Assembly: GCA_904420065.1 (NCBI GenBank)
Contig: CAJFTU010000001.1
Location: forward strand, 1 to 55,608
Direction of reading: 5' to 3'
Length of the DNA: 55,608 nucleotides
Origin: an uncultured Emergencia sp.
Lineage (GTDB): Bacteria; Bacillota; Clostridia; Peptostreptococcales; Anaerovoracaceae
Positions 1 to 19,675 of the stretch are shown one piece after another (position 1 is the first letter of the stretch; each line of letters begins with the position of its first letter). The position numbers were made by a program, and so were the translations under genes. The notes beneath the pieces were generated by a model, which was not told where the DNA came from, searched no databases, and saw only the letters and a list, made by a program, of their open reading frames with translations.

Positions 1-259
1 ATACGTACTGAAGAAGGAAGAAGGCGGAAGACATACGCCGTTCTTCAACGGATACAGACCGCAGTTCTATTTCAGAACCACAGACGTGACAGGCGATCTG
101 AAGCTGCCGGAAGGAACAGAGATGTGCATGCCGGGAGATAACGTAGTAATGGAGATCGAACTGATTACGCCGATCGCAATCGAAGAGGGACTGAGATTCG
201 CGATCAGAGAAGGCGGAAGAACAGTAGGGTCCGGCGTAGTAACGGAGATCATCGAATAA
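1..259 (+). CDS. tuf: Elongation factor Tu, C-terminal end (partial)
   Basis: The reading frame is open from base 2 and ends with TAA at 257-259, giving the last 85 residues of EF-Tu. It contains the typical domain III stretch: [20 protein letters not shown], then a MCMPGDNV block and the end [18 protein letters not shown]-Tu is the GTPase that brings aminoacyl-tRNA to the ribosome. The start and the G domain lie outside the window. A terminator follows at once, so this is the end of a transcription unit, presumably the str operon. Confidence 0.97.
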
Positions 260-597: not shown

Positions 598-825
598 TTA
601 TTCGTCTTTTACATATACGAGAATATCATTCAGATCGCAATCGAGACAGTAGCATAGGCGTGAAAGTATCGCAAGATCGACTCGTTGGACGTTGTTGTTT
701 ATGTATTTCTTCAGTTGGGTGCGCTGCATTTCTGCCCGGCATGCAAGCTTATTGATACTGATGTCCTGACTTTCCATGATTTCTTTAAGTTTTATCTCTA
801 CATGACCATAATCTATGTCTTTCAT
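598..825 (-). CDS. XRE (Cro/CI-type) HTH regulator beside BREX
   Basis: A 75-residue protein made almost entirely of one Cro/CI-type helix-turn-helix domain. The region around INKLACRAEMQRTQLKKYI has the usual recognition-helix layout. The start is set by AAAGGAGG six to seven bases upstream of the ATG on the minus strand. It is transcribed away from the BREX genes, and the gap between them holds repeated half-sites over the likely BREX promoter (863-911). The simplest reading is that it represses, or switches, the BREX operon and perhaps itself. No ligand or partner domain is present. Family assignment is firm; the target is inferred from position. Confidence 0.85.
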   Translation of the reverse strand: MKDIDYGHVEIKLKEIMESQDISINKLACRAEMQRTQLKKYINNNVQRVDLAILSRLCYCLDCDLNDILVYVKDE

Positions 826-973: not shown

Positions 974-3748
974 GTGAAAGAAAAGAAGGAAAACAGCGGC
1001 TGTGGCTGTCAATTCGTGGCTCTTTGGGTTATCGCACTTATGGCCGCCTGTTTTGTTTACCTTATGAAATATGCTGAATATTTCGGAGCAGTGGTACTGT
1101 GTATTCTTGTTGTCATTTTTGTCTTCTGTCTGATCATACATAGTCTATCTGACGATGGCAGCTTAAAAGATGATATCACTGAAGAACAGGAGCAACCTGA
1201 ATTTGAAAGTACGAGGCCTTCGGAACAAAGCAAGCAGCAAGATAAACAATCGATCCCGACATATTCTCTTATCGATGTGCCCCATAAAGAGTCGTTTGCT
1301 AACAAAGAAGAAGAGATGGTCAATCGACAATTTCGCGAATACATACAGGCGGTAAACCGGGGCATAAAATTTCAGGCAAAGCTTGAGGGGTTGAAGCAAA
1401 AGAGATCTTTTGTGATCACATCGGCGGAAAAAGCGCAGCTGGATCAGGAAATCGACAGACTCGATAAGGATCTCTGGGGAAATAAGCTGAATTCGATGAA
1501 GAAGACTTATCACTCGGATATGGCCGACGTGTTTTACAACGACGAGAAACTGAAGGCAAAATACCATTCTTTTATCGATATGCTGCCGGATAACGATCAG
1601 GTACCGTCCTGGCTCAGCGATTTTTTTCCTTCAAAGCAGGTAAAAATATGTGACATCGGATTCGTCATCAGCGAATGGGCTATTTTTACTCCGGCCTATG
1701 TAATGCTATGCGACAAACCTGAGCAGGGATTGAAACTTTGCACATATAGTTATGAATTTTCAAGAGCGAAGGTAGAGGAAAATCCCATTGGTTCGGGACA
1801 TCAAATGACTTTTGATATAGCAGGCAGGGCAATAGGCTTTGAAAGCGAAGAAATGGCAAAAACCTTTAAAGAGCGGCTGCGTTCATATGCTGACAGCCTG
1901 GACTGGGAGATTGAAGATCTGGGTTTGAAGCATCAGCACCCATTCCCTGCCTCCATTTCGAGTCTGACGACACCCTCTTCCATAGAGAGAGAGATTACAA
2001 AAGAAAGAAAAGCGGCAGAGCTGGAAGAAGAAAAGCAGAATCTGCGCAGCTATCTTACCGTAGAAGACGGCGTTCTTACAAAATGGAGCGGTTACTTGAA
2101 TGATCTCGAGATTCCACCGGGACTGGCAACCGAAATCGGAAAAGCTTTTCAATGCCGGAGAAGCACGTTAAAGACCATCGTTCTTCCCGAAGGCATTAGG
2201 GAAATACAGGCTGAAGCCTTTTTGGGATGCAGCGTTCTGAAGAGCGTCAGCCTCCCTGCGACGATGAGAAAGATTGGAAAACGTGCATTTAGCGGCTGCA
2301 AATCTTTGCGGGAACTGGTCATACCCGACGGAGTAGTCGAAATTGAAGACGAAGCATTTGCAAACTGCACAAAGCTGAAACGGCTGGTCATACCTGACAC
2401 GGTTGAAAAAATAGGAGAGAAAGTATTGGAAGGATCAACGTCGCTGGAAAGTTTGTACATTGGCACAAGGAAAATTCCGGCGAATCTCTGCGAAAACTTC
2501 CGAAAACTCAGTGAAGTGACAGCCTCTTCTCAAATTACGGAAATCGGCGACAGAGCCTTTGCGCAGTGTACTCACCTGAAAAAACTGGAATCTGCAGGCA
2601 ATAGATCCGGCTTTCCACATTTGGAGAAAATCGGCGATTATGCCTTTTTCCAGTGCAGTGCGTTTGAAGGATTTGATCTTTCCGATCAGGTCAAAGAGGT
2701 GGGCAGTTCGGCCTTTGCGTTCTGCAGTTCTCTGGAGAATATAAACGTAAGCAGCGGCGTCAACTGGTATAGGAGATCCTGCTTTACAGGAACACGGTGG
2801 CTCAGGAATCAGGCGGATCACGGATATATCATCGACGACGATTACCTCGAATACTATGGAGGCAATCAGGAAACAGCAGAGATACCATCCGGCATCAGGA
2901 CCGTCGGGAAGTACGCCTTCTACCAGAATTCCCGGGTAAAGGAGATAAAGGTACCGGATACGGCAGAGGAGATAGAAGACTATGCTTTTGCGGAATGTAA
3001 AAATCTCAGATATGTGGATATTCCCGATTCTGTTGTCAGCATAGCAGATTCGGCGCTGACTGCCGGCAGTGGAGTGACCATAAGATGCACGAGAGGCAGC
3101 GCGGCTTCAAAGTTCCGGATCAGAAACAAATTCTCCTGCGAGTATGCAGCGAAATATAAAGAAGCGCCGCAGAGGAAGACGCCGGTCGTCGCTCCGATTG
3201 TTGCGGAAAGAAAGCCGCCAACAAGAAATAGTGAAATATCCGGCCTTACTGAAGAAGAGTTTTCTCTGATCATGGATATGCGCCGCAAGAAAGTAAAAGA
3301 AAAGGAAGAAGCGAAACGAGCGGAGCAGGAGCGTAAAGAAAGGAAAGCAGTTTCGGCTGCCGCAGAAAAGACCTATACACTGTCTGCCTGGCCGGAAGAC
3401 AAAGTGAAACTGACCGCAGCAGGGAAGAGCAGGCTGATAACCAATAACATTTTCCCCGTGGTCTTTATCCAGACTGAGGCGGTCAGTGACCAATGCAAAG
3501 AAGGTAAATACGAGGTATTCGCCGTCGACAGCAGCGGTCAAATGATCAGCAACATCAGCGAAATCGATGCAGACGGAAGTATCTGCGGTATGGAGCATCG
3601 GGCTACGCTGATCCTTTCCGCTCACGGTGAATTTGACAAATCGGCGGATTACTTCGTGGTAATACGAGAAAAGGGAAAAGACACAGAAATACTGGAAAAG
3701 ATACCGTACAAGATAAATATAGAATTCGCGTCAGAATTTGATTTTTAG
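974..3748 (+). CDS. Membrane-anchored BspA-type LRR protein with a PglZ-like C-terminal domain
   Basis: A 924-residue protein starting at GTG 974, seven bases after AGGAGG (961-966). Domains in order: two membrane helices (about residues 13-31 and 37-56); a charged linker; an unrecognised globular part (about 110-330); BspA-type leucine-rich repeats (LRR_5; about 366-725) with repeated units such as LRELVIPDGVVEIEDEAFAN; a Lys/Glu-rich coiled segment; and a C-terminal domain (about 818-924). That last domain aligns with the end of PglZ in this locus (residues 758-863): SRL..N.IF, KYEV, and IPYKINIEF against IPFKINISF. It is the first gene of the BREX operon, 11 bases before brxL. LRR proteins of this class usually bind other proteins. 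I infer a BREX-specific accessory that tethers, senses or competes through a shared docking domain. It is not one of the six standard type 1 BREX genes. Confidence 0.85.
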   Translation: MKEKKENSGCGCQFVALWVIALMAACFVYLMKYAEYFGAVVLCILVVIFVFCLIIHSLSDDGSLKDDITEEQEQPEFESTRPSEQSKQQDKQSIPTYSLIDVPHKESFANKEEEMVNRQFREYIQAVNRGIKFQAKLEGLKQKRSFVITSAEKAQLDQEIDRLDKDLWGNKLNSMKKTYHSDMADVFYNDEKLKAKYHSFIDMLPDNDQVPSWLSDFFPSKQVKICDIGFVISEWAIFTPAYVMLCDKPEQGLKLCTYSYEFSRAKVEENPIGSGHQMTFDIAGRAIGFESEEMAKTFKERLRSYADSLDWEIEDLGLKHQHPFPASISSLTTPSSIEREITKERKAAELEEEKQNLRSYLTVEDGVLTKWSGYLNDLEIPPGLATEIGKAFQCRRSTLKTIVLPEGIREIQAEAFLGCSVLKSVSLPATMRKIGKRAFSGCKSLRELVIPDGVVEIEDEAFANCTKLKRLVIPDTVEKIGEKVLEGSTSLESLYIGTRKIPANLCENFRKLSEVTASSQITEIGDRAFAQCTHLKKLESAGNRSGFPHLEKIGDYAFFQCSAFEGFDLSDQVKEVGSSAFAFCSSLENINVSSGVNWYRRSCFTGTRWLRNQADHGYIIDDDYLEYYGGNQETAEIPSGIRTVGKYAFYQNSRVKEIKVPDTAEEIEDYAFAECKNLRYVDIPDSVVSIADSALTAGSGVTIRCTRGSAASKFRIRNKFSCEYAAKYKEAPQRKTPVVAPIVAERKPPTRNSEISGLTEEEFSLIMDMRRKKVKEKEEAKRAEQERKERKAVSAAAEKTYTLSAWPEDKVKLTAAGKSRLITNNIFPVVFIQTEAVSDQCKEGKYEVFAVDSSGQMISNISEIDADGSICGMEHRATLILSAHGEFDKSADYFVVIREKGKDTEILEKIPYKINIEFASEFDF

Positions 3749-3759
3749 GAGGAAGCCAT

Positions 3760-5832
3760 ATGGATGCACTGGATGCAAAGATTGTCGACAATTTTCCGGG
3801 AAAGATCGTCCGGAAAGATTTAACCGCATACATGAAAAGAGGGGCCAACGTGCCCACCTTCGTCTTGGAATACCTTCTGGGGATGTATTGTTCCACCGAC
3901 GATGAAGAGGCCATACAGATAGGTCTGGAAAAGATAAGGAACGTTCTCTCCGAAAACTACGTGCGGCCGGACGAGAGCGAAAAGATCAAGTCCAGAATTC
4001 GCGAAAACGGTCAGTATACGGTTATCGACAAGGTTTCTGCCAGGCTGGACGAGTATAAAGATATTTACATCGCTCAGTTCACCAACCTGGAGATCGAGCC
4101 TTTTGTGCTTCCGGCAGAGTACGCAAGAAAATACACCAAGATACTCACGGGAGGAATCTGGTGTCTTACCAAGATTGCATATCAGTACGAAACCGATGAC
4201 TTTGAGATAGATGACAGGAAACCGTCGAGAAAAAAGCGGGGACCTGAAGATTCTCCTTTCCGGATAACGAGCCTCAAACCCATACAGATGCCTAACCTGG
4301 ATCTGGATGAGATCATTAAAAAGCGGGCTGAATTCACCTTTGACGAGTGGCGGGACATGATCCTGCGGTCGGCGGGTTATGAACCCGAAGCTCTTGAAGA
4401 GAAGCAGAAGATGCACTTTATCGAAAGAATGGTGCCGCTTATCGAAAAGAACTACAACTTCTGTGAGCTGGGACCGAGGGGAACAGGAAAATCCCATATC
4501 TATAAAGAGATTTCACCTTACTCCATCCTCATGAGCGGAGGGCAGACATCGACGGCCAATCTGTTCTTCAATCTGAGAACCCGCCACGTAGGACTGGTGG
4601 GGCACTGGGACTGTGTTGCCTTTGACGAAGTAGCCGGTATGCGGTTCAAAGACGTCAACGCCATTCAGATCCTCAAGGACTACATGGCTTCCGGTTCATT
4701 TGCCAGAGGAAAAGATCAGATCAATGCAGACGCTTCTATTGTGTACATTGGAAATATCAATGACAACGTAGAAACTCTGCTTAAAATCACCCATTTATTT
4801 ACGCCTTTTCCGCCTGAATTTAACAACGACAGCGCTTTCTTCGACAGAATGCATTACTATCTTCCCGGCTGGGAGATTCCGAAGATGCGTTCGGAGCTTC
4901 TCACCGGAAAATACGGGCTGATTACGGACTGCCTTTCCGAGTTTTGCAAGGAAATGCGGAAGAAAGATTTTTCTCATACCTTCGACATCTATTTCAAGCT
5001 GAATAAGGATTTCAACAAGCGGGATGAGATTGCGGTGAGGAAGACCTTTTCGGGGCTTGCCAAACTGCTCTTCCCGGATGGAGAAATGAGCAAAGAGGAG
5101 ACAAAGATGCTCCTTGAATACGCCATCGAAGGACGCCGCCGCGTTAAGGAGCAGCTGAAGACCATGGCGGGCGTTGAGTTTATCGACGTCAATCTGGGCA
5201 TTGTGGATAAAGAGGAAAATACAGAAGATATTGTGGGTGTTCCTGAGCAGACGCCGAATACCCTTATTCCTGATGTGAAACTGCCATTTGGCCACGTCTT
5301 TGCCGTAGGTAAGAGCGCATCGGGAGAGATGGCCGTTTACCGTCTTGAAAATAAAGCTGTCAAAGGTTCGGGCAGTCTGGAAACTCAGGGAATAGGAAAC
5401 AACAGACCGGTCCGGGAAGCTGTGACGGCTGCCTTTACCTATTTTGGAACCAATGCGCGGAAGGTGCTGCCGGGGATCAAGGTCTCAGAGAAAGATTACC
5501 TCCTCTACTATGGGGATTCACAGAGAAAAGGACTCAGTACGGAGATCTCTCTGGGAGAATTCATCGGTCTGTGTTCGGCTCTTGCAGAAAGATCGGTGAT
5601 CGAGTCTCTCGCTATTGCCGGTGACATAAAGATATCCGGTACCCTTGCCAAACTGACCAATCTGGAAGAGATCTTCAGAGTATGTAAAAACGCCGGCGCT
5701 AAGCGGGTTCTCATACCGATGGACTGCATTATGGATATGCAAAGCGTGTCGAGAGAACTGCTTAGCGAAATACAGCCGATGCTTTACAATGATCCGTTGG
5801 ATGCGGCTCGAAAAGCATTGGATATATTCTAA
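3760..5832 (+). CDS. brxL: BREX AAA+ / Lon-like protein BrxL
   Basis: A 690-residue protein matching the BrxL family of type 1 BREX. The start follows AGGAGG with normal spacing. The AAA+ core has a Walker A motif GPRGTGKS (residues 238-245) and a Walker B ending in FDE (288-290). The C-terminal part resembles the Lon protease domain. By eye, the Lon catalytic Ser aligns with the Ser of KGLST, but the catalytic Lys position holds Glu in the LTNLEEIF segment, so peptidase activity is doubtful. BrxL is known as the DNA-binding restriction effector, and is dispensable for methylation. Here it is second in the operon, although in canonical type 1 loci it is last. Its pairing with the LRR gene may be functional. 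Confidence 0.93.
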   Translation: MDALDAKIVDNFPGKIVRKDLTAYMKRGANVPTFVLEYLLGMYCSTDDEEAIQIGLEKIRNVLSENYVRPDESEKIKSRIRENGQYTVIDKVSARLDEYKDIYIAQFTNLEIEPFVLPAEYARKYTKILTGGIWCLTKIAYQYETDDFEIDDRKPSRKKRGPEDSPFRITSLKPIQMPNLDLDEIIKKRAEFTFDEWRDMILRSAGYEPEALEEKQKMHFIERMVPLIEKNYNFCELGPRGTGKSHIYKEISPYSILMSGGQTSTANLFFNLRTRHVGLVGHWDCVAFDEVAGMRFKDVNAIQILKDYMASGSFARGKDQINADASIVYIGNINDNVETLLKITHLFTPFPPEFNNDSAFFDRMHYYLPGWEIPKMRSELLTGKYGLITDCLSEFCKEMRKKDFSHTFDIYFKLNKDFNKRDEIAVRKTFSGLAKLLFPDGEMSKEETKMLLEYAIEGRRRVKEQLKTMAGVEFIDVNLGIVDKEENTEDIVGVPEQTPNTLIPDVKLPFGHVFAVGKSASGEMAVYRLENKAVKGSGSLETQGIGNNRPVREAVTAAFTYFGTNARKVLPGIKVSEKDYLLYYGDSQRKGLSTEISLGEFIGLCSALAERSVIESLAIAGDIKISGTLAKLTNLEEIFRVCKNAGAKRVLIPMDCIMDMQSVSRELLSEIQPMLYNDPLDAARKALDIF

Positions 5833-5848
5833 GAAGGAGGCTGCAGCA

Positions 5849-6922
5849 ATGTTTTATCAGTGCCGCCAGTGCCGCAGGACGTTTGCATTCAACGATTCAA
5901 TACGGTTTTGTCCCTATTGCGGCGGAGAACTGACCGAAGCCCGGGAAAACTACAGCAGCGAAGTAAGCGCAGAAGGGGAAGCCAGGCTGAATGAAGTGAT
6001 CGATTCTATCTGGGGAGAAAAGGCTCGCCTGCGCTCTCTCTTTATCAGCGAGGTTAGATCCTGTATCACTGCATTCAACCATTATGCAGAGATTAGAATC
6101 GGAACAGAACTGCCGACGCCGGCGGACACGGAGTTTGCCCGGCAGTATGACCGTTTTAAAGGCAGCGAGAGCTGCGAAGAACTGCTTGGACAAGTCAGAG
6201 AATATGTGTTGGAGCTGGAAAGGGCAATACCTGCTATTCCGGGAGACCTCTATGCAGATGTTCGGGCAAAAGTCGAGATAGCTACAGATGACGTGGAAGA
6301 GACGGCGGCCGACTTATATGCTTTTCTTGAAAGAGAATGTCCGAGACAAAAGAAAGCGTTTTTCCGGGAGCAAAATTTGCGAATTGAACAGATTTTCAGC
6401 AGAGAGCAGCTGAAGGAACTCTACGGGCAGGTGCTTGTCGCCTTTGAAAAATACGAGCGGTGCGTGAAAGAAAATGACTTGTTCGCTGCGTTCCCTGTCA
6501 GCGCCAGCTACGGCAGCCTGAACGATTATCGGAGGAGAAAAGACAGAGAAAGTTTTGCTTTCTGCAATGAGGGCGACGAGACGGATATATTGACTGCAGA
6601 AGAAGCGGCTCAGGAATATGAAGAAATTTCGGCATACATGAAAGAGCAGAACGCCATACCTTATGGCGGCTTTCTCGACGAAGACTGTGATATCCATGTG
6701 GACGCATTCTGGAGAGGTCTTGAGGCCCTGTGCAGATTCATCGATCATTGCATGCTTGTCAAATGTGACACAAAATTCTTCTGCCTTCAGCGGGAGGAGA
6801 TCAGGCAGATAGAAGATGACATCGCTTTCGGACGTTTTGAAATGACCGAAAACGCACTTAGGGGCGCGCGGAAACTGAAAACACGCCTGGATGAGAAAAT
6901 AGGAAGCCTGGCGGACAGGTAA
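5849..6922 (+). CDS. Zinc-ribbon protein of unknown function inside BREX
   Basis: A 357-residue protein. ATG 5849 is chosen because AGAAGGAGG lies eight bases before it; an upstream in-frame ATG at 5789 would overlap brxL and has no ribosome site. The N-terminus is a compact zinc ribbon with CRQC and CPYC knuckles about 15 residues apart. The rest is acidic and mostly helical, with no motif I know. It lies 16 bases after brxL and 21 before brxA, so it is co-transcribed with the BREX core. A zinc ribbon points to nucleic-acid or protein binding. No enzymatic role can be read from it. Confidence 0.75.
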   Translation: MFYQCRQCRRTFAFNDSIRFCPYCGGELTEARENYSSEVSAEGEARLNEVIDSIWGEKARLRSLFISEVRSCITAFNHYAEIRIGTELPTPADTEFARQYDRFKGSESCEELLGQVREYVLELERAIPAIPGDLYADVRAKVEIATDDVEETAADLYAFLERECPRQKKAFFREQNLRIEQIFSREQLKELYGQVLVAFEKYERCVKENDLFAAFPVSASYGSLNDYRRRKDRESFAFCNEGDETDILTAEEAAQEYEEISAYMKEQNAIPYGGFLDEDCDIHVDAFWRGLEALCRFIDHCMLVKCDTKFFCLQREEIRQIEDDIAFGRFEMTENALRGARKLKTRLDEKIGSLADR

Positions 6923-6943: not shown

Positions 6944-7546
6944 GTGCGAAACAGAGTCTACAGCGGCGCCCTGACGGCAGAACAATTCCTGTTTTACGAG
7001 ATCAGGATCGCCGTGGGATACTATATGAACGGCGACAGCCTGCAGCAGGCGGCGGAGCAGATCGCAGAGGGGAATCTCTTTCAGTATCCAACTTTGCGGG
7101 AAGTGAAACGGATGACAAAGGCCTGCTACAGAAGGCTGGATGCTTTGGAAGATCAGGAACTGGTCAGTGAGCTCCGAAGTGCACCTGCAGATATAGCCAG
7201 ACAGATCAATCTATATGCAATGATGAGGGATAACCTGCTGGTATGGGAATTTATGGTTCAGTTGATCGGGGAAAAGTACCGCATGCAGGATTTTCATTTG
7301 GACCGAAAGGATATCAACGGATTTTTTTCCCGGCTCCAGGCGCAGAGCGACCAGATCGCCGGATGGAGCGACAGCACGATAGACAAGATAAGAGGTGTTT
7401 TGCTCCGAAGCCTGGTTGAGACAGAGCAGCTTGACAGCACCAGGTCGACTTCGCTGCATCCCATACTGATCAGCGAAGAATTAAAAACAGGCATGATGAG
7501 AAACGGAGACAGAGAAGCGCTTGTAGCTTTTAACTGTTTCGGATAA
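6944..7546 (+). CDS. brxA: BREX protein BrxA (DUF1819)
   Basis: A 200-residue protein of the BrxA/DUF1819 family, which is small, helical and DNA-binding in characterised type 1 BREX systems. It starts at GTG 6944 after GGAGGA (6932-6937). Recognisable stretches are the N-terminal YSGALTAEQFLFYEIRIA and the central PTLREVKRMTKACYRRL. It directly precedes brxB in the standard brxA-brxB-brxC order. It lacks catalytic motifs. Confidence 0.9.
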   Translation: MRNRVYSGALTAEQFLFYEIRIAVGYYMNGDSLQQAAEQIAEGNLFQYPTLREVKRMTKACYRRLDALEDQELVSELRSAPADIARQINLYAMMRDNLLVWEFMVQLIGEKYRMQDFHLDRKDINGFFSRLQAQSDQIAGWSDSTIDKIRGVLLRSLVETEQLDSTRSTSLHPILISEELKTGMMRNGDREALVAFNCFG

Positions 7547-7556
7547 GGAGATAGCG

Positions 7557-8111
7557 ATGATACAAGAAGAACTGGATCGCATCAAATACAGGTTATCTGA
7601 GAGAGATTTTCTGGAAAATAAGGGACTCAGCAACGAAGTAGGGATACATATTTTCTGCTATCGACCCCAGGAGGAGATGATTGTCCAAAACTACGTCAGA
7701 ATGCTGAAGGACCAGCCCAATACCCCTTATCGCATCATAGAAAGAGACCTCTACGAGATATTTCTCTCTCTTCTGTCAGATAAGCGGATATTGGATAAGA
7801 TTCCGGATATGGAAAATAAGAAGGGCAGGGACTTTCTCCTGAAACAGCTGCAAAATATTGCGCAGCCGAAGAATCTCATCGAAAGGATGGACTACCAGCC
7901 CCATGAACCGGGACGGGACGTGTTATTCATGACGGGTATAGGCAAGATCAACCCGTTTATGCGGTCTCACAAGATATTGGACAGCATGCAGTCAGTCTTC
8001 GAAGACATACCGGTGGTCATGTTTTATCCCGGAAAGTTTAACGGAGACAAGCTGGAGCTCTTTGACCGCTTTCTGGACGGCCACTATTACAGAGCGTTCA
8101 ATCTGATCTGA
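7557..8111 (+). CDS. brxB: BREX protein BrxB (DUF1788)
   Basis: A 184-residue protein of the BrxB/DUF1788 family, an essential BREX component of uncertain biochemical role. The family signature RPQEEMIVQNYVRMLK and the closing VVMFYPGKFNGDKLELFDRF are visible. It starts ten bases after brxA with ATAAGGAG upstream. Its stop codon TGA (8109-8111) overlaps the first possible ATG of brxC, as expected for translational coupling. Confidence 0.92.
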   Translation: MIQEELDRIKYRLSERDFLENKGLSNEVGIHIFCYRPQEEMIVQNYVRMLKDQPNTPYRIIERDLYEIFLSLLSDKRILDKIPDMENKKGRDFLLKQLQNIAQPKNLIERMDYQPHEPGRDVLFMTGIGKINPFMRSHKILDSMQSVFEDIPVVMFYPGKFNGDKLELFDRFLDGHYYRAFNLI

Positions 8112-8122
8112 TGGAGGAAATG

Positions 8123-11100
8123 ATGAAGATAGGTACGATGTTCGCAAGGAACATAAACAGAAATATAAACGGAGTAATCAAAGTCGGCCAGGACGACGAA
8201 AAAAGCCTTGAACAGGAACTGAGCGAATATGTGATTACGAGAGAACTCAGGGGGCATTTTCAGAAGTTCATCGATCATTACACGGAATCGCTGGACGAGC
8301 CTACCGACAGAATCGGCGTCTGGATTTCCGGTTTCTTCGGAAGTGGTAAATCTCACTTTCTCAAGATGCTCTCCTATATACTCAGCGGGAGGCAGGTAGG
8401 CGAAAAAAAGGCAGTGGAGTACTTTAAGGATAAGCTGGACGATCCGATGATGTACGCCCAGATGGAACGCTGCGCTTCGGTACCTACAGAGTCGATCCTG
8501 TTCAACATAGATATCGAAGGGCCGATGAAAAAGGACAGGACCGCTGTTCTCTGGACCTTTGCCAAGGTGTTTTACAATCACTGCGGGTTTTACGGAGATG
8601 ACAGCAAGATTGTCCGCCTGGAAAAATTCGTGGAAGAACAGGGGAAGACGTCCCAATTCAGAGAGACCTTTGAGCAGATTAACGGGGCAGCCTGGACAGA
8701 AGTGAGGGATTCTGCGGCCTTTTTTGAAGACGATGTAGCGGAAACCATGGAAAAGGTTCTCGGCATGAGCCAGCAGGCGGCTCGCAACTGGTTCAACAGT
8801 GAAGAGACCAACGAGATGACCATAAAAAGTCTGGTAGCGGATATCAAAAAATATGTGGACAGAAAAGGAAAAGACTTCAGGCTGCTGTTCATGGTCGATG
8901 AGATTGGACAATATATCGGTGACGACGGAGATCTGATGATCAATCTGCAGTCCATTGTGGAGGAGATCGGCACTCGCTGCGGCGGACGGGTCTGGGTCAT
9001 GGTGACCAGTCAGGAAGCTATCGATTCTATTGTGAAGATAACCGGAGACGACTTTTCCAAAATACAGGGCAGATTCAATACCCGCCTCAGTCTGTCGTCC
9101 TCTTCCGTGGCGGAGGTAATCCAGAAGAGGGTGCTGGCAAAGACCGAAGAAGCGGATCAGCTTTTGCGCCTGGTCTATGCTGATGAGCACGCCGTGCTGA
9201 AAAACCTGTTTACCTTCAACGATGCGGTCATGGATATAAAGGGGTTTACCAATGAAGAGGAATACTCGGCGTCTTATCCGTTCATACCTTATCAGTTTAC
9301 GCTGATTCAGAAGGTGATAGCGGAAGTCAGAAGACACGGTGTCAGCGGCAAATCGGTATCCGGCGGGGAACGATCCATGCTTTCCGGGTTTCAGGAGGCT
9401 GCGCAGAAAGTGCAGGAGAGCGGGGAAGAGGCTCTGGTGCCCTTTTATCTCTTTTACGACACCATATCGACCTTCCTTGACAGCAGTATCCGCCGCGTAA
9501 TTGAACGATGTCTGCGCGCAGCGGAGAATCACGACGGTATCGAAGCGCAGGACGTAAATGTGCTGAAGCTTCTGTACCTCCTCCGATATATAGATGATAT
9601 CAAGGCGAATACGGATAACCTTGCCGTATTGATGATAGACGACGTCAATGTGGATAAGATCGCGCTCAGAGGGGACATCAACGGCTCGCTGGACCGGCTT
9701 ATCTCTCAGAACTATGTCGCGCGCAGCGGAGATACATACAGCTTTCTTACTGATGAGGAACAGGAGATTTCCAGGGACATCAAGAATACCGTTCTCGATA
9801 TGGCGCAGATAACCCAGAGCATAGCGCAGACGGTATACGGAGAAATCTATCCGGCGAAAAAATTCAAATACGGAAAATACGATATTCCTTACGATCAGTA
9901 TGTAGACGAGACGCTCTACGGTTCCGCTTCCGGCGGGATGAGGCTGAAGCTGCTCACGGTCGCGGGAAATAGCGGAGAGATCGACGAACCAAGCCTGATC
10001 ATGGAGTCGCAGGCAAACAGCGAGGCGATAGTCATTTTAACGGACGACGCCCCTTATTTTGACGAGCTTGAGCAGTCGATGAAAATCAGAAGATATATCA
10101 AGCAGCGCAACACGGCTCATCTTGCCGAAAGCGTGCAGAACATCATAAGGCAGAGACAGCAGCAAGCGAGAGCGCAGGAAGAGCGGGCGAGGGACTACCT
10201 GGAGGAGGCGATCGTAAACGCAAAAGTAATCATCTGCGGTGAAACCATGCAGATCAGAGCCGGCAGCGCAAAGGAAAAGATAGATGAGATTCTGAGAAAT
10301 CTGACGGAAAGTGTCTATACAAAACTGTACATGATAAACACCTTTGCTGACGGCGACGGAGATATCCTGAAGATCCTGAACGGTTCCGAGGAGGAGAACC
10401 TGACTATCGCAGGCTCCGGCGCCAACAATGAAGAGGCCCTTGCCGACCTGAGCCAGTGGATTGAGCTGAGGGGACTCAGTACGGTAACCGTAAGTGACAT
10501 ACAGCAGAGATATCAGGCAATTCCTTACGGCTTTAGAGAAATCGATATTGCCGCACTGATCGCAAGACTGGCCGCGCAGAAGAAGATTTCCGTTAAATAC
10601 GGCGGCGTGGAGATAAGAACCGACGATCCCCATATGCCGGAATATCTGAGGAGAAAAGGAAATAAGAAAGATGCGGTAGTGACGAAAAAGGAGGCGGTCT
10701 CTGACGTTCTGCTGCAAAGAAGCGCAGAATTTCTCCGCGAATACACGGGTGAGATGAACATCCCCCGGGAGGAAGACGGCATGACGGCTTATGTGACGGA
10801 GAAGCTGCAGGAGAAGAGAGAGCATTGCCTCCGGCTTCAAAATGAATACTACGCGAAGGGGAAGTATCCCGGTGCGGATATCGTCGGCAAAACGGCGGAG
10901 CTTACCGGAGATATTCTCGAGAGACGGAGAGATAACACCGCTCTTCTGGAATATATGCTCAGCAGACAGGACGATCTGCTGGATGCAGAGGAAGACATGG
11001 AAGAGGTAAACGGCTTTTTCGCAACGCAGGCCGATATCTACGAAAACGCTTTTTTGAGAACGGAACAGCTGCGGAATGAGCGGGAATACCTGTCTTCTAA

Positions 11101-11620
11101 CCAGGAGGCGGACGAGGCGTTTAAAGCGATATTATCGATTCTGGCCATGGAAAGGCCGTACAGCAGAATAAAGGAACTTCCGCAGCTTTTAACTGACGTC
11201 AACAGGACCTATCAGGAAATCCTGGATCGACGGAAACAGGACGTGCTGGAGGTAAACCGGCAGTGCATGGCGGATATCCATCAGACGGCCGAGATTACGC
11301 GGGGAGCCGGTCAGGCCGCAGAGCAGGCGGACGCGTATTTTGTCAGAAAGAGAGATGAGATCGGAGAGTCCGGCTCCATCATTGAAATTGATGCCAAGAA
11401 AGCTCAGATGATGGAATATCGGGACAGAGTTTTGCGAGACATGGAGAATCTCTCCGAAGTTTCGATCGGTGTTCAGGAGAAGATTAGCAGGGTGAGCCGG
11501 GGAGAGCTGTGCCCGCTCAGGAAACTGCAAAGCGCAGAGGATATCGACGCTTATGTGGAAGCTATCCGACAGAAACTCTATGCAGCCATAGAGGAAAACG
11601 ACGCCGTGCAGATAGGCTGA
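8123..11620 (+). CDS. brxC: BREX P-loop ATPase BrxC
   Basis: A large ATPase of 1165 residues. ATG codons occur at 8111, 8120 and 8123. I take 8123 because GGAGGA at 8113-8118 is well spaced only for it, and because BrxC proteins begin MKIG-MFA-(N)INRNINGVIKV, as here. The Walker A motif is GFFGSGKS (residues 70-77) and the Walker B is LLFMVDE (254-260). A long helical C-terminal half follows. BrxC is required for both methylation and exclusion in type 1 BREX. There is a 62-base gap before pglX, with no terminator. Confidence 0.93.
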   Translation: MKIGTMFARNINRNINGVIKVGQDDEKSLEQELSEYVITRELRGHFQKFIDHYTESLDEPTDRIGVWISGFFGSGKSHFLKMLSYILSGRQVGEKKAVEYFKDKLDDPMMYAQMERCASVPTESILFNIDIEGPMKKDRTAVLWTFAKVFYNHCGFYGDDSKIVRLEKFVEEQGKTSQFRETFEQINGAAWTEVRDSAAFFEDDVAETMEKVLGMSQQAARNWFNSEETNEMTIKSLVADIKKYVDRKGKDFRLLFMVDEIGQYIGDDGDLMINLQSIVEEIGTRCGGRVWVMVTSQEAIDSIVKITGDDFSKIQGRFNTRLSLSSSSVAEVIQKRVLAKTEEADQLLRLVYADEHAVLKNLFTFNDAVMDIKGFTNEEEYSASYPFIPYQFTLIQKVIAEVRRHGVSGKSVSGGERSMLSGFQEAAQKVQESGEEALVPFYLFYDTISTFLDSSIRRVIERCLRAAENHDGIEAQDVNVLKLLYLLRYIDDIKANTDNLAVLMIDDVNVDKIALRGDINGSLDRLISQNYVARSGDTYSFLTDEEQEISRDIKNTVLDMAQITQSIAQTVYGEIYPAKKFKYGKYDIPYDQYVDETLYGSASGGMRLKLLTVAGNSGEIDEPSLIMESQANSEAIVILTDDAPYFDELEQSMKIRRYIKQRNTAHLAESVQNIIRQRQQQARAQEERARDYLEEAIVNAKVIICGETMQIRAGSAKEKIDEILRNLTESVYTKLYMINTFADGDGDILKILNGSEEENLTIAGSGANNEEALADLSQWIELRGLSTVTVSDIQQRYQAIPYGFREIDIAALIARLAAQKKISVKYGGVEIRTDDPHMPEYLRRKGNKKDAVVTKKEAVSDVLLQRSAEFLREYTGEMNIPREEDGMTAYVTEKLQEKREHCLRLQNEYYAKGKYPGADIVGKTAELTGDILERRRDNTALLEYMLSRQDDLLDAEEDMEEVNGFFATQADIYENAFLRTEQLRNEREYLSSNQEADEAFKAILSILAMERPYSRIKELPQLLTDVNRTYQEILDRRKQDVLEVNRQCMADIHQTAEITRGAGQAAEQADAYFVRKRDEIGESGSIIEIDAKKAQMMEYRDRVLRDMENLSEVSIGVQEKISRVSRGELCPLRKLQSAEDIDAYVEAIRQKLYAAIEENDAVQIG

Positions 11621-11682: not shown

Positions 11683-14250
11683 ATGAACAAAAATGCCATA
11701 GAGAAATTTGCCGTATGGGCAAGGACAGAGCTGATCAGGCAGGTATCCCAGCGTGCTTATCAGTACGGCGTAACCGCTGAGGACTTCGGGGATCCGCAGG
11801 CCTCGGCAGTCAACGGCAGAGTACTGTCAAACGGGGAAAAGGAGCAGAGAGCAGAGCTGATCAAACACGTGCAGCAGAAAGGCTATGATCAGACCATGGA
11901 AGAAATGGCATACACCTGGTTCAACCGGTTTACCGCTCTCCGGTTCATGGAAGTGAACAACTATCTGCCGACTCACATCCGCGTGTTTACCAATATGGAA
12001 GGAGAGTTTAAGCCGGATATACTCTCCATGGCGCTAACGATCGATTTGCCGGGGATTGACCGGGAAAAGGCGGCAAGGTACATAGACGAAAGCCGCGATG
12101 AAGATCTGTATCGGTATTTGCTTCTGACCCAGTGCAATGCTCTCAGCGAACCGCTGCCGGGCATGTTTGAAAAACTGGGAAGCTACACTGAGCTTCTGCT
12201 GCCGAATAACATCCTCAGGCAGGACAGCGTCATCGGGAGGCTGATATCCGATATATCGGAGGAAGACTGGAAGGAGCAGGTGGAGATTATCGGCTGGCTG
12301 TATCAGTATTACATTTCGGAAAGACATGAAGAAGTGGTAAATGTGATCAAAAGCAAAGCGGTAAAGAAAGAAGATATCCCAGCCGCTACACAGCTCTTTA
12401 CTACGGATTGGGTCGTAAGATATATTGTGGATAATTCTCTCGGCCGTTACTGGATAGAAAGACATCCGGAAAGTACTCTCGCGGATAAGCTCGAATTTCT
12501 TGTGATGCCCAAATCGGGAAAGTTCGACCCTGTTGAGGAAACGGTGCGACCGGAGGATATGACGTTCTTTGATCCTTGCATGGGCAGCGGTCATATTCTG
12601 GTCTATGCCTTTGATGTGCTGATGGAGATATATAAAGAGAGTGGATTCAGCGAAAGAGATGCAGCTGCGGAAATCGTAAAGAATAACCTGTTTGGACTTG
12701 ATATTGACGATCGCTGCTCCCAGCTTGCTTATTTTGCAGTGATGATGAAAGGCAGGAGCTATGACAGGAGATTTTTTACGAGAGGAATTACTCCGCATGT
12801 CATGGCAATACAGGAAAGCGATGCGCTGCAGCATTCTTCAGCTTACAGTTTCATGACTGATGCAGAGCAGAACGACGTATGGGATTACTTGTTGGAAACC
12901 TTTGCTGATGCAAAGGAAATAGGAACTCTCCAAACCGTGAAGAAAAGAGATTATGAAGTCTTTCTGGATTATCTTGAAAAATGCGAGAAAAGTGCAAGCA
13001 TAGATCTTGATTTTACCGAATGGGCGCGGTCGGGGAAACCGGTGATGGAATGTCTCGCCAAACAGGCTGAAATAATGTGTGAAGAATATACGGTGGTCTG
13101 CACCAATCCGCCGTATTTGAACAAATTGGATGACAAGCTCAAATCCTTTGCGACATCAAATTACAAGGAATACTCCGGAGATCTGTTTAGCGTGTTCATG
13201 TATAGGAATTTCGGATACAGCAAGGCTGATGGATACGTTGGATTCATGACACCAAATGTCTGGATGTTTATAAAAACATATGAAAAGCTCAGGGAATTTA
13301 TATACAAATCCAAGAACATAGTAACACTTGTACAGATGGCAAAGGGTGCCTTTTTTAAGGAAGCAACTGTGGATATTTGTGGGTTTGTTCTAAGTAATAA
13401 TAAAAAAGAAAGAATAGGTCTTTATATTCGGTTAGAAAATTTCAAAGGCGGTATGGAAGTTCAGCGAGAGAAGGTCTTAGAAGCTATTGCAAATCCTGAC
13501 TGCGGTTATTTCTACGAGAGTGATCAGTTCAACTTTTCCAAGATACCGGGTTCACCGGTGGCGTATTGGGTGAGTGACGAATTTATCGCTGCGTTTACGG
13601 AGGGGGAAAAACTCGGCGATATAGCTGAGCCGCGACAAGGACTTGCAACAGCAGACAATAATCGTTTTCTAAGACTATGGTATGAATTAGCAGCAAAAAA
13701 AATATGTATAAATGCACATGACCGAAACGATGCCTTAAGATCTGAAAAGAAATGGTTTCCTTATAATAAAGGTGGAGAATTTAGAAAATGGTATGGAAAC
13801 AATGATTTTGTCGTGAATTGGGAAGATGATGGGTTTGAAATTCGTAATTTCAAAGATGAGAACGGGAAATTAAGATCCGTAATACGAAATCCTAATACGT
13901 ATTTTCAAGAAAGTATTACATGGTCTAAGATTTCAAGTGGGACAATAGCATTTCGCTACAAACCCTTTGGGCATATTTATGATGTAGCAGGCACAAGTAT
14001 TTTTGCAAAACATGATTTACTACTTCAATTGATTGCGTTTTGCAATTCGAATGTTGCAATGGCTGTTGCAAAACTATTATCGCCTACGATCAATTATGAA
14101 GTTGGGCACATTGCAAACTTCCCAGTTTTTGCCCCTGGTGGATATTGTGATACTATTGTTTCATTGAGTGAGCAGCAGATTGAATGCTCCAAATCCGACT
14201 GGGACTCTTATGAAACCTCTTGGGACTTCAAGAGACATCCGATGGTGTGA
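11683..14250 (+). CDS. pglX: BREX adenine methyltransferase PglX, N-terminal part (split gene)
   Basis: An 855-residue N6-adenine methyltransferase. Motif I is DPCMGSG (residues 297-303) and motif IV is NPPY (475-478). The PglX N-terminal helical domain precedes them, and a target-recognition region follows. Single-chain type 1 PglX proteins are about 1200 residues. This one stops right after DSYETSWDFKRHPM, a segment that in intact proteins continues into a conserved C-terminal domain. That missing domain is encoded 871 bases downstream (15121-16062). From about 13320 the gene becomes clearly AT-richer than its 5' part, which fits a swapped target-recognition segment. PglX methylates the BREX site on host DNA. 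It may still work if the two parts assemble. Confidence 0.93.
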   Translation: MNKNAIEKFAVWARTELIRQVSQRAYQYGVTAEDFGDPQASAVNGRVLSNGEKEQRAELIKHVQQKGYDQTMEEMAYTWFNRFTALRFMEVNNYLPTHIRVFTNMEGEFKPDILSMALTIDLPGIDREKAARYIDESRDEDLYRYLLLTQCNALSEPLPGMFEKLGSYTELLLPNNILRQDSVIGRLISDISEEDWKEQVEIIGWLYQYYISERHEEVVNVIKSKAVKKEDIPAATQLFTTDWVVRYIVDNSLGRYWIERHPESTLADKLEFLVMPKSGKFDPVEETVRPEDMTFFDPCMGSGHILVYAFDVLMEIYKESGFSERDAAAEIVKNNLFGLDIDDRCSQLAYFAVMMKGRSYDRRFFTRGITPHVMAIQESDALQHSSAYSFMTDAEQNDVWDYLLETFADAKEIGTLQTVKKRDYEVFLDYLEKCEKSASIDLDFTEWARSGKPVMECLAKQAEIMCEEYTVVCTNPPYLNKLDDKLKSFATSNYKEYSGDLFSVFMYRNFGYSKADGYVGFMTPNVWMFIKTYEKLREFIYKSKNIVTLVQMAKGAFFKEATVDICGFVLSNNKKERIGLYIRLENFKGGMEVQREKVLEAIANPDCGYFYESDQFNFSKIPGSPVAYWVSDEFIAAFTEGEKLGDIAEPRQGLATADNNRFLRLWYELAAKKICINAHDRNDALRSEKKWFPYNKGGEFRKWYGNNDFVVNWEDDGFEIRNFKDENGKLRSVIRNPNTYFQESITWSKISSGTIAFRYKPFGHIYDVAGTSIFAKHDLLLQLIAFCNSNVAMAVAKLLSPTINYEVGHIANFPVFAPGGYCDTIVSLSEQQIECSKSDWDSYETSWDFKRHPMV

Positions 14251-14260
14251 GGTAAAGAAT

Positions 14261-14581
14261 ATGGGCATTTTTGAAAATATTGAAGCAATTTCTAAGTATA
14301 GGCAACTTAAAAATATTCTTGGTAAAAACGGGCAAATTTTCAGTACTAAAGCGCAAGCTTTCAAGAGGGATATACTCATATATGATGGGAAAGTGCAATA
14401 CAGCATATCGTACAATGCTGGATACGAACAATATCAAGTTCCCATTATATGGGATATACCGCAAATATCTGCAAACGCAATGGAATTGCATGGGGGATAC
14501 AATACGAATTTCCAGTCATTTAGATTTGAGAATAGTTCACTATTAATAGAAGATAAGGATATTAAAATCATTTTATATTAA
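14261..14581 (+). CDS. Unknown 106-residue protein in the cassette splitting pglX
   Basis: The ATG at 14261 lies eight bases after a GAGG ribosome site that overlaps the end of pglX-N. The product has 106 residues, mixed alpha/beta character and no motif I recognise. Codon use and base composition are much AT-richer than the flanking BREX genes. Its stop codon overlaps the start of the next gene (TAATG), so the two form a unit. The position inside pglX suggests a modulator of the methyltransferase or a small toxin/antitoxin-like pair, but this is speculation from context. Confidence 0.6.
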   Translation: MGIFENIEAISKYRQLKNILGKNGQIFSTKAQAFKRDILIYDGKVQYSISYNAGYEQYQVPIIWDIPQISANAMELHGGYNTNFQSFRFENSSLLIEDKDIKIILY

Positions 14582-15105
14582 TGGAGCATCAAATAATGAT
14601 AGAGCGGTTAAGAGAGCATGTGAGTGATGGTCAGATGAGAGAAATCGTTGACATGATCGTCAAACAGTATAGAAATTATCTTGGTAATATGTACAACCTA
14701 AATGCAGCAAATCTGTTTCGTGAAGAATATGCGTCTCACTATAGACAATATTGTATTTCATGGGCCATTATAAGTGCTTTCGAAAGTGGGAGTATTGTAG
14801 CCGGTGATCTGCAAGTCAAAAAAATAGAATATGGTCGTGGACATAATAGACCTGAGCTAAGCAATAATAAAATAAAAATTCATATTTTGAGTTCGGAAAT
14901 AAATCTCAATGCAAATTACTTACAAAAGGACTATGAATGCAACAAAAATAATTTTTCCAATGAACAGTTATGTTGCATTATAAGATATAACACGAAAAGA
15001 GGCAGGTTGAATTCTATAACACTGTGCTTGCCTGACGAAACCGGTCAAATCATAGAAACAGAGAAGTTGCTTGATAGAAATAAAATTCTAAAATATGTAG
15101 CATAA
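14581..15105 (+). CDS. Unknown 174-residue protein in the cassette splitting pglX
   Basis: The frame opens at ATG 14581, overlapping the previous stop; a second ATG at 14596 is also possible. The 174-residue product begins with a helical region (IERLREHVSDGQMREIVDMI) and an aromatic segment (YASHYRQYCISWAIISAF), then a beta-rich half ending near LLDRNKILKYVA. I do not recognise the family. It is AT-rich like its partner. Fifteen bases after its stop the composition returns to that of the BREX core, where the PglX C-part begins. Confidence 0.6.
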   Translation: MEHQIMIERLREHVSDGQMREIVDMIVKQYRNYLGNMYNLNAANLFREEYASHYRQYCISWAIISAFESGSIVAGDLQVKKIEYGRGHNRPELSNNKIKIHILSSEINLNANYLQKDYECNKNNFSNEQLCCIIRYNTKRGRLNSITLCLPDETGQIIETEKLLDRNKILKYVA

Positions 15106-15120
15106 TCCGGAGGACTAACC

Positions 15121-16062
15121 ATGCCAAAATACATATCCGACAAATACGAAGCCTACAAGGCTGAGTGCAATCAGCGCTTTGACCAGCTCAAGGCCAACGA
15201 AGAAGAACTGAACCGCATTTTCATCGACATTTACGGCTTGCAGGACGAGCTTACCCCTGATGTGGCCGACAGAGATGTGACCGTTCATCGCGTCTACGAC
15301 ACCAAGGACGATGTGCCCGAATCCATGAAGGGCAGCAATTATGTTCGCACCAAGAGGGACGAGATCGTTTCTCTCATTTCCTATGCCGTAGGCTGCATGT
15401 TCGGCAGGTACTCCCTCGATGCAGAGGGTCTTGCCTATGCGGGCGGCGATTGGGACGACAGCCGGTACAGCACCTTTATCCCGGTCGGAGACAACATCAT
15501 ACCCATATGCGACGACGACTACTTCCAAAACGAGGCCACAGCCCTCTTCATCAGATGGGTGCAGGCGGCGTATGGCAGCGATACTCTCGAGGAGAATCTC
15601 CGCTTCGTTGCCGATGCCCTTGAAGGAAAAGGCGCCCCGAGAGACGTCATCAGGAGCTACTTCCTCAACGACTTTTACAAAGATCACTGCAAAACGTATC
15701 AGAAAAGGCCCATATACTGGCTTTTCGACAGTGGTAAAAAAGACGGCTTTAAAGCGCTTATCTACATGCACCGCTATCAGAGCGACCTGCTTGCCCGCAT
15801 GAGGACGGACTATGTTCACGAGCTCCAAGAGCGGTACCGCAGTCAGCTTGCTGCTGTTGCCGAGGCCCTGGAGCACCGGTCTGCCGGGGAAAAAGCGCGG
15901 CTGGTAAAGCGGCAGAAGAAGCTGCAGGATCAGTCCCTTGAAATACAGAAATTCGAAGAGAAAATCCATCATCTTGCCGATATGAACATTTCTATCGACC
16001 TGGACGACGGAGTCAAGCACAATTACGCCCTTTTCAGCGACGTGCTGGCAAAGATTAAGTAA
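15121..16062 (+). CDS. pglX: PglX C-terminal part as a separate gene
   Basis: A 313-residue protein with its own GGAGGA ribosome site (15108-15113) and ATG. It matches the C-terminal domain of single-chain PglX: the conserved block RFDQLKANEEELNRIFIDIY, then QDELTP, SYAVGCMFGRYSLD, YQKRPIYWLFDSGK, a coiled-coil and the closing DLDDGVK. In whole PglX this follows the SWDFKRHP segment that ends 11683-14250. Base composition matches brxC and the 5' part of pglX. The 12-base gap to pglZ keeps it in the operon. It contains no methyltransferase motif and could act only as a subunit. A genome annotation might call it a pglX fragment. Confidence 0.88.
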   Translation: MPKYISDKYEAYKAECNQRFDQLKANEEELNRIFIDIYGLQDELTPDVADRDVTVHRVYDTKDDVPESMKGSNYVRTKRDEIVSLISYAVGCMFGRYSLDAEGLAYAGGDWDDSRYSTFIPVGDNIIPICDDDYFQNEATALFIRWVQAAYGSDTLEENLRFVADALEGKGAPRDVIRSYFLNDFYKDHCKTYQKRPIYWLFDSGKKDGFKALIYMHRYQSDLLARMRTDYVHELQERYRSQLAAVAEALEHRSAGEKARLVKRQKKLQDQSLEIQKFEEKIHHLADMNISIDLDDGVKHNYALFSDVLAKIK

Positions 16063-18666: not shown

Positions 18667-18695
18667 TCCGGATCAAACGAGGAAAATCTGCGGTC

Positions 18696-18725
18696 TTGAC
18701 GAGAAGCTCGTCCGGATAGTATAAT
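18696..18725 (+). promoter_or_regulatory. Sigma-A promoter for yitT-type gene
   Basis: TTGACG (18696-18701) and a perfect TATAAT (18720-18725) are separated by 18 bases. They lie 92 bases before the start of the YitT-family gene, giving it its own promoter after BREX. Confidence 0.75.
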
Positions 18726-18817
18726 AGCCTTGTAAGCAAAAGCATTTGTACCGCGCCGCAACGGCGGGTGTGCAGATGTTTTTTTTCGGGTAATTTTGTG
18801 TAAAAAGGAGGTAACCG

Positions 18818-19675
18818 ATGAAGAATTTGCAAGTGGGTAAATTGGCTGTCGACATCCTGGTCGATATTGCAGGCGGCATACTCATCGCCGTAGGAACGTA
18901 TAATTTTGCTGCGACGGCAGAGTTCCCCATGGTTGGATTTAACGGTATCGGATTGATCCTTTACCATCTTTTCGGCCTGCCTATAGGTACAGTCGCTTTT
19001 GTGCTGAACATTCCTGTAGCGATTTGCTGTTTCAAGATACTGGGGAAAGATTTTTTCATTCGTTCCATCCGCACGATTATCATTACATCTCTGATCATGG
19101 ACTTCGTGGCGCCTTTGTTTCCGGTATACGAAGGAGACATGATGCTGGCGGCGATCTGTACCGGCGTTCTTTCCGGACTGGGCTATGCGCTGATCTTTAT
19201 GAGAGGCTCTTCGACGGGCGGTTCGGATTTCATCATGCTGTCCATTAAAGAGCTCCATCCGCATCTGTCCCTGGGAAACATTTCCTTCGCCATGGAGGCG
19301 GTGGTCATCCTGGCCGGTACCATTCTGGTGTCGAAAAATATCGACGGACTGATCTACGGAATGCTCATCAGTTTTATCCTCTCCGTCATGGTGGATAAGG
19401 TGATGTACGGTATATCCGCAGGAAAGATGGCTCTTATCGTTACGGATCACGCCCGTGAAGTGGCTGAACGGATCGATCAGACCGTGGGAAGAGGTTCCAC
19501 CTTCCTCAAGGCCAGAGGAAGCTTTTCTGAAGCAGATAAAGACGTGGTTATGTGCGCCTGCAGCACAAAACAGATGTACGGAATACGGACCCTGGTGAAA
19601 GAAATCGATCCAAACGCTTTTCTGATCATCATGGAGTCCAACGAAGTCGTGGGATACGGCTTCAAGGAGAAATAA
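18818..19675 (+). CDS. YitT family membrane protein (DUF161/DUF2179)
   Basis: A 285-residue integral membrane protein. ATG 18818 follows AAGGAGGT. About five to six hydrophobic segments occupy residues 10-200, with the family block MRGSSTGGSDFIMLSIKEL in the middle. A soluble C-terminal DUF2179 domain of about 80 residues follows (GRGSTFLKARGSFSEADKD). The cellular role of YitT proteins is not established; transport or sensing has been suggested. It is monocistronic, with its own promoter and terminator. Confidence 0.9.
   Translation: MKNLQVGKLAVDILVDIAGGILIAVGTYNFAATAEFPMVGFNGIGLILYHLFGLPIGTVAFVLNIPVAICCFKILGKDFFIRSIRTIIITSLIMDFVAPLFPVYEGDMMLAAICTGVLSGLGYALIFMRGSSTGGSDFIMLSIKELHPHLSLGNISFAMEAVVILAGTILVSKNIDGLIYGMLISFILSVMVDKVMYGISAGKMALIVTDHAREVAERIDQTVGRGSTFLKARGSFSEADKDVVMCACSTKQMYGIRTLVKEIDPNAFLIIMESNEVVGYGFKEK

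Follow-up and report, generated by a model that had tools for sequence, protein, structure and literature searches.

A leucine-rich repeat (LRR) protein encoded at the head of a BREX operon ends in a copy of the C-terminal domain of PglZ, the last ~115 residues being homologous to that domain of the PglZ encoded in the same operon. The operon lies in the window, by which we mean the whole stretch of 55,608 nucleotides that was analysed, and its features are collected in Table 1. BLASTP aligned residues 810–924 of the LRR protein with residues 750–863 of PglZ (44 of 117 columns identical, 38%, E = 3e-16), and a codon alignment of the two tails gave 43 identical residues out of 112 aligned. The Smith-Waterman score of the LRR protein against PglZ was 171, compared with a mean of 27.5 (sd 4.9) and a maximum of 51 in 2000 shuffles. 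In the PADLOC model of PglZ (PDLC02564), residues 807–924 correspond to positions 735–855 of 855 (E = 2e-18), and the NCBIfam family TIGR02687 also matched the LRR protein (E = 8.2e-7). Lastly, a profile of PglZ tails only (A4; 14 tails, of which hhalign used 13, with the LRR protein left out) matched the LRR C-terminus in hhalign at 99.2% (E = 8.6e-20, 114 columns), while the same profile scored 0.1% against the protein's own N-terminal domain as a control. An earlier note on this DNA had recognised the copy from an alignment by eye and had named a profile-profile comparison of the two tails as the check, and the methods used here agree with it. Its hand counts of 19 identities in 43 positions and 16 in about 30 proved exact when the alignment was recounted by eye, and the region stands as it was placed, except that the start given at residue 818 has to be moved about 8 residues upstream, to residue 810, where the alignment begins.

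Table 1. Features of the BREX operon and its surroundings in the window, with the domains of the LRR protein and of PglZ.
Feature	Coordinates	Strand	Basis or remark
Gene end, presumably of elongation factor Tu	2..259		
75-aa ORF, resembling a small helix-turn-helix regulator in its sequence	598..825	-	divergent from the operon
LRR protein, 924 aa	974..3748	+	first gene of the BREX operon; intact ORF, GTG start
Predicted two-helix membrane hairpin, aa 8–64	995..1165	+	Kyte-Doolittle hydropathy
Orphan N-terminal domain, aa 101–341	1274..1996	+	search of 393 order-level genomes; Pfam
BspA-type LRR_5 solenoid, about aa 370–722	2081..3139	+	Pfam PF13306, 3 stretches
Charged linker, about aa 723–808	3140..3397	+	20 K+R, 16 D+E in 86 residues
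Copy of the PglZ C-terminal domain, aa 810–924	3401..3745	+	BLASTP, PADLOC, NCBIfam, hhalign
brxL	3760..5832	+	PF13337, PF20442; TIGR02653
377-aa ORF between brxL and brxA, possible zinc ribbon	5789..6922	+	no family above cut-off
brxA	6944..7546	+	PF08849
brxB	7557..8111	+	PF08747
brxC	8111..11620	+	PADLOC PDLC02471
pglX, N-terminal piece	11683..14250	+	NF033452 positions 1–898 of 1210
ORF in the pglX gap, longest frame 137 aa	14168..14581	+	overlaps the pglX end; no family
174-aa ORF in the pglX gap	14581..15105	+	no family; homolog in the pglX gap of L069
pglX, C-terminal piece	15121..16062	+	NF033452 positions 907–1209 of 1210
pglZ, 863 aa	16075..18666	+	PF08665; PDLC02564 E = 2e-265
PglZ C-terminal domain (family of the LRR tail)	18322..18663	+	BLASTP, profile comparison

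The tail and the rest of the LRR protein

The profile match covers the whole domain, and the LRR tail has the full domain length and the terminal aromatic pair in common with PglZ tails. Only the last ~105–120 positions of PglZ profiles are matched by the LRR protein, so that it is not a member of the PglZ enzyme family; no match to the PglZ catalytic domain (PF08665; residues 474–649 of PglZ) was found in it by family and profile scans.

The tail is not a recent copy, because the third codon positions of the LRR and PglZ tails agree in just 36% of 112 aligned codons. Recent duplication or gene conversion could be ruled out on the same grounds, and also because the PglZ tail of the same operon is no closer to the LRR tail (35% identity) than are other PglZ tails (29–39%); judged by this divergence, the copy is an old one. 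In a tree of 66 tails, for which the program warned about few columns and long rows, the LRR tail groups with its own operon's PglZ tail in a group of 27 rows (support 98/95). Its end branch of 2.07 is the longest in the tree (next 1.48, median 0.13), and forcing it to be the sister of its own PglZ tail gave a p-AU of 0.072, which does not settle a sister placement. Sixteen columns show a conservation of 90% or more among PglZ tails; the LRR tail keeps 10 of them, whereas the PglZ tails themselves keep 95% on average and never less than 81%. Four of the six changes in the LRR tail are conservative in our judgement (two L to V, one Y to F and one F to L). By these measures the LRR tail retains the length and pattern of the domain, yet has diverged beyond the PglZ tails of the set.

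Ahead of the tail, the protein carries the two predicted membrane helices and the BspA-type repeats that had been noticed before. Windows of 19 residues with a Kyte-Doolittle value above 1.6 start at residues 8–16 and 28–46, giving two hydrophobic segments, and the Pfam family LRR_5 (PF13306) matched at E = 1e-62 with 210.1 bits, far above its curated cut-off of 27.7, which places the repeats in the BspA type; the solenoid region also matches solved LRR chains. The charged linker connects these repeats with the PglZ-type tail. We consider the LRR protein to be probably membrane-held. The net charge around the hairpin is +1 before it and −7 after it, a bias weakly compatible with both hairpin ends, and with them the LRR, being cytoplasmic. 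The module had also been called receptor-like; this should not be taken to mean that the protein faces outward, because its tail comes from an intracellular enzyme and its hairpin weakly fits a cytoplasmic LRR. The N-terminal domain matched no Pfam family above cut-off and, apart from itself, gave one weak match in 393 order-level genomes (G283), in a protein that we take to be RNase R. No NTPase family of the NACHT, NB-ARC or STAND kind was matched in the LRR protein by family and profile scans, in which parts of it were searched at E up to 10, and it is thus not an NLR-like immune receptor.

The operon, its split pglX and the occurrence of the fusion

With brxA, brxB, brxC, pglX, pglZ and brxL together, the operon is of BREX type 1, its pglX being in two pieces. 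The LRR gene indeed stands at its head, as had been claimed, followed by brxL and the others down to pglZ. The distance from the LRR stop to brxL is 11 bp, and AGGAGG lies upstream of the GTG start of the LRR gene as well as ahead of the start of brxL. Between the divergent regulator-like ORF and the LRR gene we counted five consensus promoter matches compared with 2.4 (sd 1.6) in shuffles, an excess that is just somewhat above chance. No homolog of the 377-aa ORF behind brxL was reported in scans of BREX loci, and the five scanned genes after pglZ (YitT family, ABC and cobalt transport, methyltransferase, then aminotransferase) are not BREX genes. We compared 87 loci, including the window; three of them were fetched twice (L053 = L071, L054 = L080, L056 = L085) and many are cut by contig ends. 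Among the 67 loci having both genes, brxL lies downstream of pglZ in 66 and upstream of it in the window alone, so that the LRR gene and brxL together occupy an unusual site at the operon head.

The split of pglX may matter more than the LRR fusion. In the 87 loci, pglX is in one frame in 62, split in seven, represented by a C-terminal piece only in three and not seen in 15. Six of the seven split genes, those of the window, L066, L067, L069, L114 and L129, are broken at one fixed junction (in the seventh, L195, the break is elsewhere and has no insert). At this junction the first piece ends in ...ETSWDFK[R/S/K][H/N]P[L/M][V/L], the second opens with M-x-x-[L/Y]-I-S-[D/N]-K in five of the six loci and with a variant in L066, and the gap of 834–3807 bases contains other genes. 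Two loci with the second piece alone, L057 and L128, show the same opening. The gaps hold a HEPN domain in L069 (and one below cut-off in L066), TIR and DUF4062 in L114, Schlafen/AlbA_2 with a HATPase domain in L129, and a 270-aa ORF in L067 that, like several others, belongs to no family; just ahead of the lone second pieces lie ORFs with DUF559 (L057) and a HATPase-like domain (L128). The fixed junction is a slot for other genes and, unlike the LRR fusion, it is recurrent. Effectors like those in the gaps are catalogued beside BREX genes in the parts of a recent BREX survey that treat them (PMC12839542); the words "split" and "interrupt" do not occur in the main text of that survey, and we do not claim novelty for the split.

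We searched for the tail in whole genomes of the same genus (13), family (247), order (393), class (391) and phylum (398), in sets that overlap, and tallied the places matched at E ≤ 0.001 outside the window's genome, counting two broken genes once each. Of 92 distinct places, 87 lie in frames that also hold the PglZ core. The remaining five are one weak match in an unrelated-looking protein and four short fragments, located in G196, G1145, G1052 and, going by its match alone, at one of the three G1127 places. A search for further proteins ending in this tail beside BREX genes, suggested in the earlier note, thus came back empty: among the 92 places in these genus to phylum samples there was no second LRR-tail protein and no other intact tail fusion, and the LRR-tail protein, which does not recur in the BREX loci of the other genomes sampled, is not a conserved BREX component. 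Three matches at E 0.001–0.01 (G049, G385, G387), outside the tally, are in frames with neither a PglZ core nor an LRR match. The fragment in G196 (L107; L112, 9666–9941) was considered as a possible second fusion and rejected, being a short tail frame of 91 aa with no BREX-gene matches in the surrounding 18 kb; its neighbours are presumably HIRAN-like, membrane and DUF262-like genes. A weak tail match in L108 (G267) was likewise set aside, since the protein is unrelated-looking and of a secreted type.

Other collections gave the same picture. A scan of genome contigs, made with short peptide patterns that would miss distant cases, found 11 loci with the tail, all having BREX genes and none a second fusion; the PglZ core is in the tail's own frame in nine, L061 is cut by a contig end, and in L062 the core and tail frames overlap. 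Of two scans of viral contigs, the one with the whole protein gave one unrelated LRR match and the other gave no tail. Four records of a phage collection matched the tail, two of which are short contigs; the other two, L128 (MT837207.1) and L129 (MT835838.1), were examined. Both are filed as bacteriophage from human faecal samples; with their pglX pieces and complete pglZ frame they resemble host BREX DNA. Among the plasmid matches listed (2 of 2, 60 of 237 and 40 of 73 records), the tail falls in pglZ, in no feature or in a "hypothetical protein". There are two of the last kind: H74 is flanked by an annotated pglZ piece and by brxL, and in H62 the annotated gene has 177 bases and the match 48 residues. 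Within the window's own genome, tail matches were limited to the LRR protein and PglZ, from which it follows that the other LRR proteins of this genome do not carry the tail. A general association of LRR proteins with BREX gained no support either: LRR_5-like ORFs were seen in two of the 86 loci other than the window, and one of the two is apparently secreted.

The fusion therefore looks like a singleton so far, in one genome, and a single example offers no evolutionary evidence for a maintained association of the LRR-tail protein with BREX. We found no BREX gene of this kind in the open-licence papers that we searched, in agreement with the earlier remark that no described one was known, and the 2026 BREX survey (PMC12839542) nowhere uses "LRR", "leucine-rich" or "transmembrane" in its main text. 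The new element is an accessory LRR-tail protein in an otherwise known kind of BREX-1 operon, found nowhere else in our searches and a singleton so far.

Possible roles of the LRR tail

Published ideas on the role of the PglZ tail range, in the passages concerned with it, from a dimer contact to the recognition of invaders. The sections of the BREX survey on this domain describe it as an Ig-like beta-sandwich that is fast-evolving and consistently kept, and propose a recognition role (PMC12839542). A second paper ascribes the dimerisation of PglZ partly to its Ig-like C-terminal domains touching each other, in a ~7 Å map with a docked AlphaFold3 model (PMC13326643), and it is because the domains touch in this map-docked model that the idea of docking through the tail has a concrete basis. 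BrxB has been modelled on residues 1–96 of PglZ, which in that model puts its contact away from the tail (PMC12205998); PDB entry 9nv3 holds both PglZ and BrxB chains.

Our tentative preference is for the LRR protein as an accessory BREX component, the tail of which may pair with that of PglZ and dock BrxB:PglZ at the membrane under LRR control. The N-terminal hairpin would hold the protein on the cytoplasmic face of the inner membrane, and the tail would pair with the PglZ C-terminal domain or replace one partner in a PglZ pair, since, if PglZ tails pair, a second tail-bearing protein can pair with PglZ or displace its partner. By such pairing the BrxB:PglZ(:BrxC) module would be recruited to the membrane, and the solenoid might sense something and control the docked module. 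We count in favour of docking the homology by four comparisons, the full tail length with 10 of 16 conserved columns and no catalytic domain, the position of the gene at the operon head 11 bp before brxL, and, in the parts of the two papers that concern them, the published tail-tail contact (PMC13326643) with the BrxB contact lying elsewhere (PMC12205998). Against docking we count the single example, hence no sign of selection across lineages, and the divergence of the LRR tail, the greatest in the tree, since a pairing surface need not persist; furthermore, the tail is not resolved as the sister of its own PglZ tail (p-AU 0.072), the published contact is low-resolution and model-docked, and the topology is read from hydropathy and from a charge bias that is weak. 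If the LRR protein does dock BREX at the membrane, this would give BREX a cellular location and possibly a trigger.

An accident is somewhat unlikely and owes the weight that it has to there being only one example: this would be a one-off, tolerated fusion that is inert for BREX, in a rearranged operon. The occurrence in a single genome, the displaced brxL, the split pglX and the orphan N-terminal domain would all suit it, but the reading frame is unbroken over its 924 codons, and the tail has kept its length and 10 of 16 conserved columns in spite of third positions being only 36% identical. An unused tail would probably not keep its length and conserved columns.

More doubtful is an inhibitor or checkpoint, in which the LRR tail would fill the site of the PglZ tail's partner and keep the nuclease complex inactive, or in its methylation state, for as long as the repeats have no phage or stress signal bound. 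The effect on BREX activity is hypothetical, and we know of no binding partner of the LRR tail, which counts against such an inhibitor. The same anatomy speaks for it as for docking, and the next gene after the LRR gene is brxL, whose place is different in the 66 other loci with both genes; it has been described as not needed for methylation and as contributing to restriction to a varying degree (PMC13326643). We would also regard as improbable a membrane LRR immune receptor that carries a copy of a domain of its own defence machine as bait or docking plug, and that would recruit or release BREX at the membrane once its tail or its repeats are engaged by a phage protein or a signal.

Plant LRR immune receptors carry copies of guarded host domains, and by analogy the tail might be an integrated decoy, a bait for phage proteins attacking the PglZ C-terminal domain, with the LRR and membrane parts reporting or acting; we consider this the least probable of the readings, as we know of no phage protein that binds a PglZ tail, the LRR protein gave no match to an NTPase or toxic effector domain, and the longest branch of 66 tails, which together with the retention of most of the strongly conserved columns would fit a decoy, is also compatible with relaxed constraint. 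A bait function would make the tail a bacterial counterpart of the decoy domains in plant immune receptors. Also in line with a decoy, the survey describes the PglZ domain as fast-evolving and, in its sections on BREX-related helicases, proposes that inactive domains there are decoys (PMC12839542).

Comparison with known systems

Two other LRR proteins near BREX genes differ from the one described here. The LRR_5-like protein of L057 lacks the PglZ tail and looks secreted, while the LRR_5 protein of L076 (G190, 16603–19521), encoded 15 bp after brxL, lacks the tail and has an unrelated N-terminus. In L076 the LRR_5 gene is followed by a 172-aa ORF and then by a protein kinase gene (PF00069). 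The repeat type itself is common to BspA-type (LRR_5) proteins, and other LRR proteins are present in the same genome; unlike the LRR-tail protein, they have no PglZ tail, and the LRR-tail protein also has the hydrophobic hairpin and the orphan N-terminal domain. The auxiliary or backup effectors of BREX operons are likewise non-core genes inside the operon, although those catalogued in the relevant parts of the survey are nucleases (PMC12839542). The closest likeness of the tail is to the C-terminal domain of BREX-1 PglZ (PglZ type A), with which it shares its sequence family, its full length and the terminal aromatic pair, whereas here the domain ends an LRR protein without a phosphatase or nuclease domain. 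In this natural protein, which bears a PglZ tail but not the enzyme, tail and catalytic domain are separated, and the role of the tail becomes directly testable.
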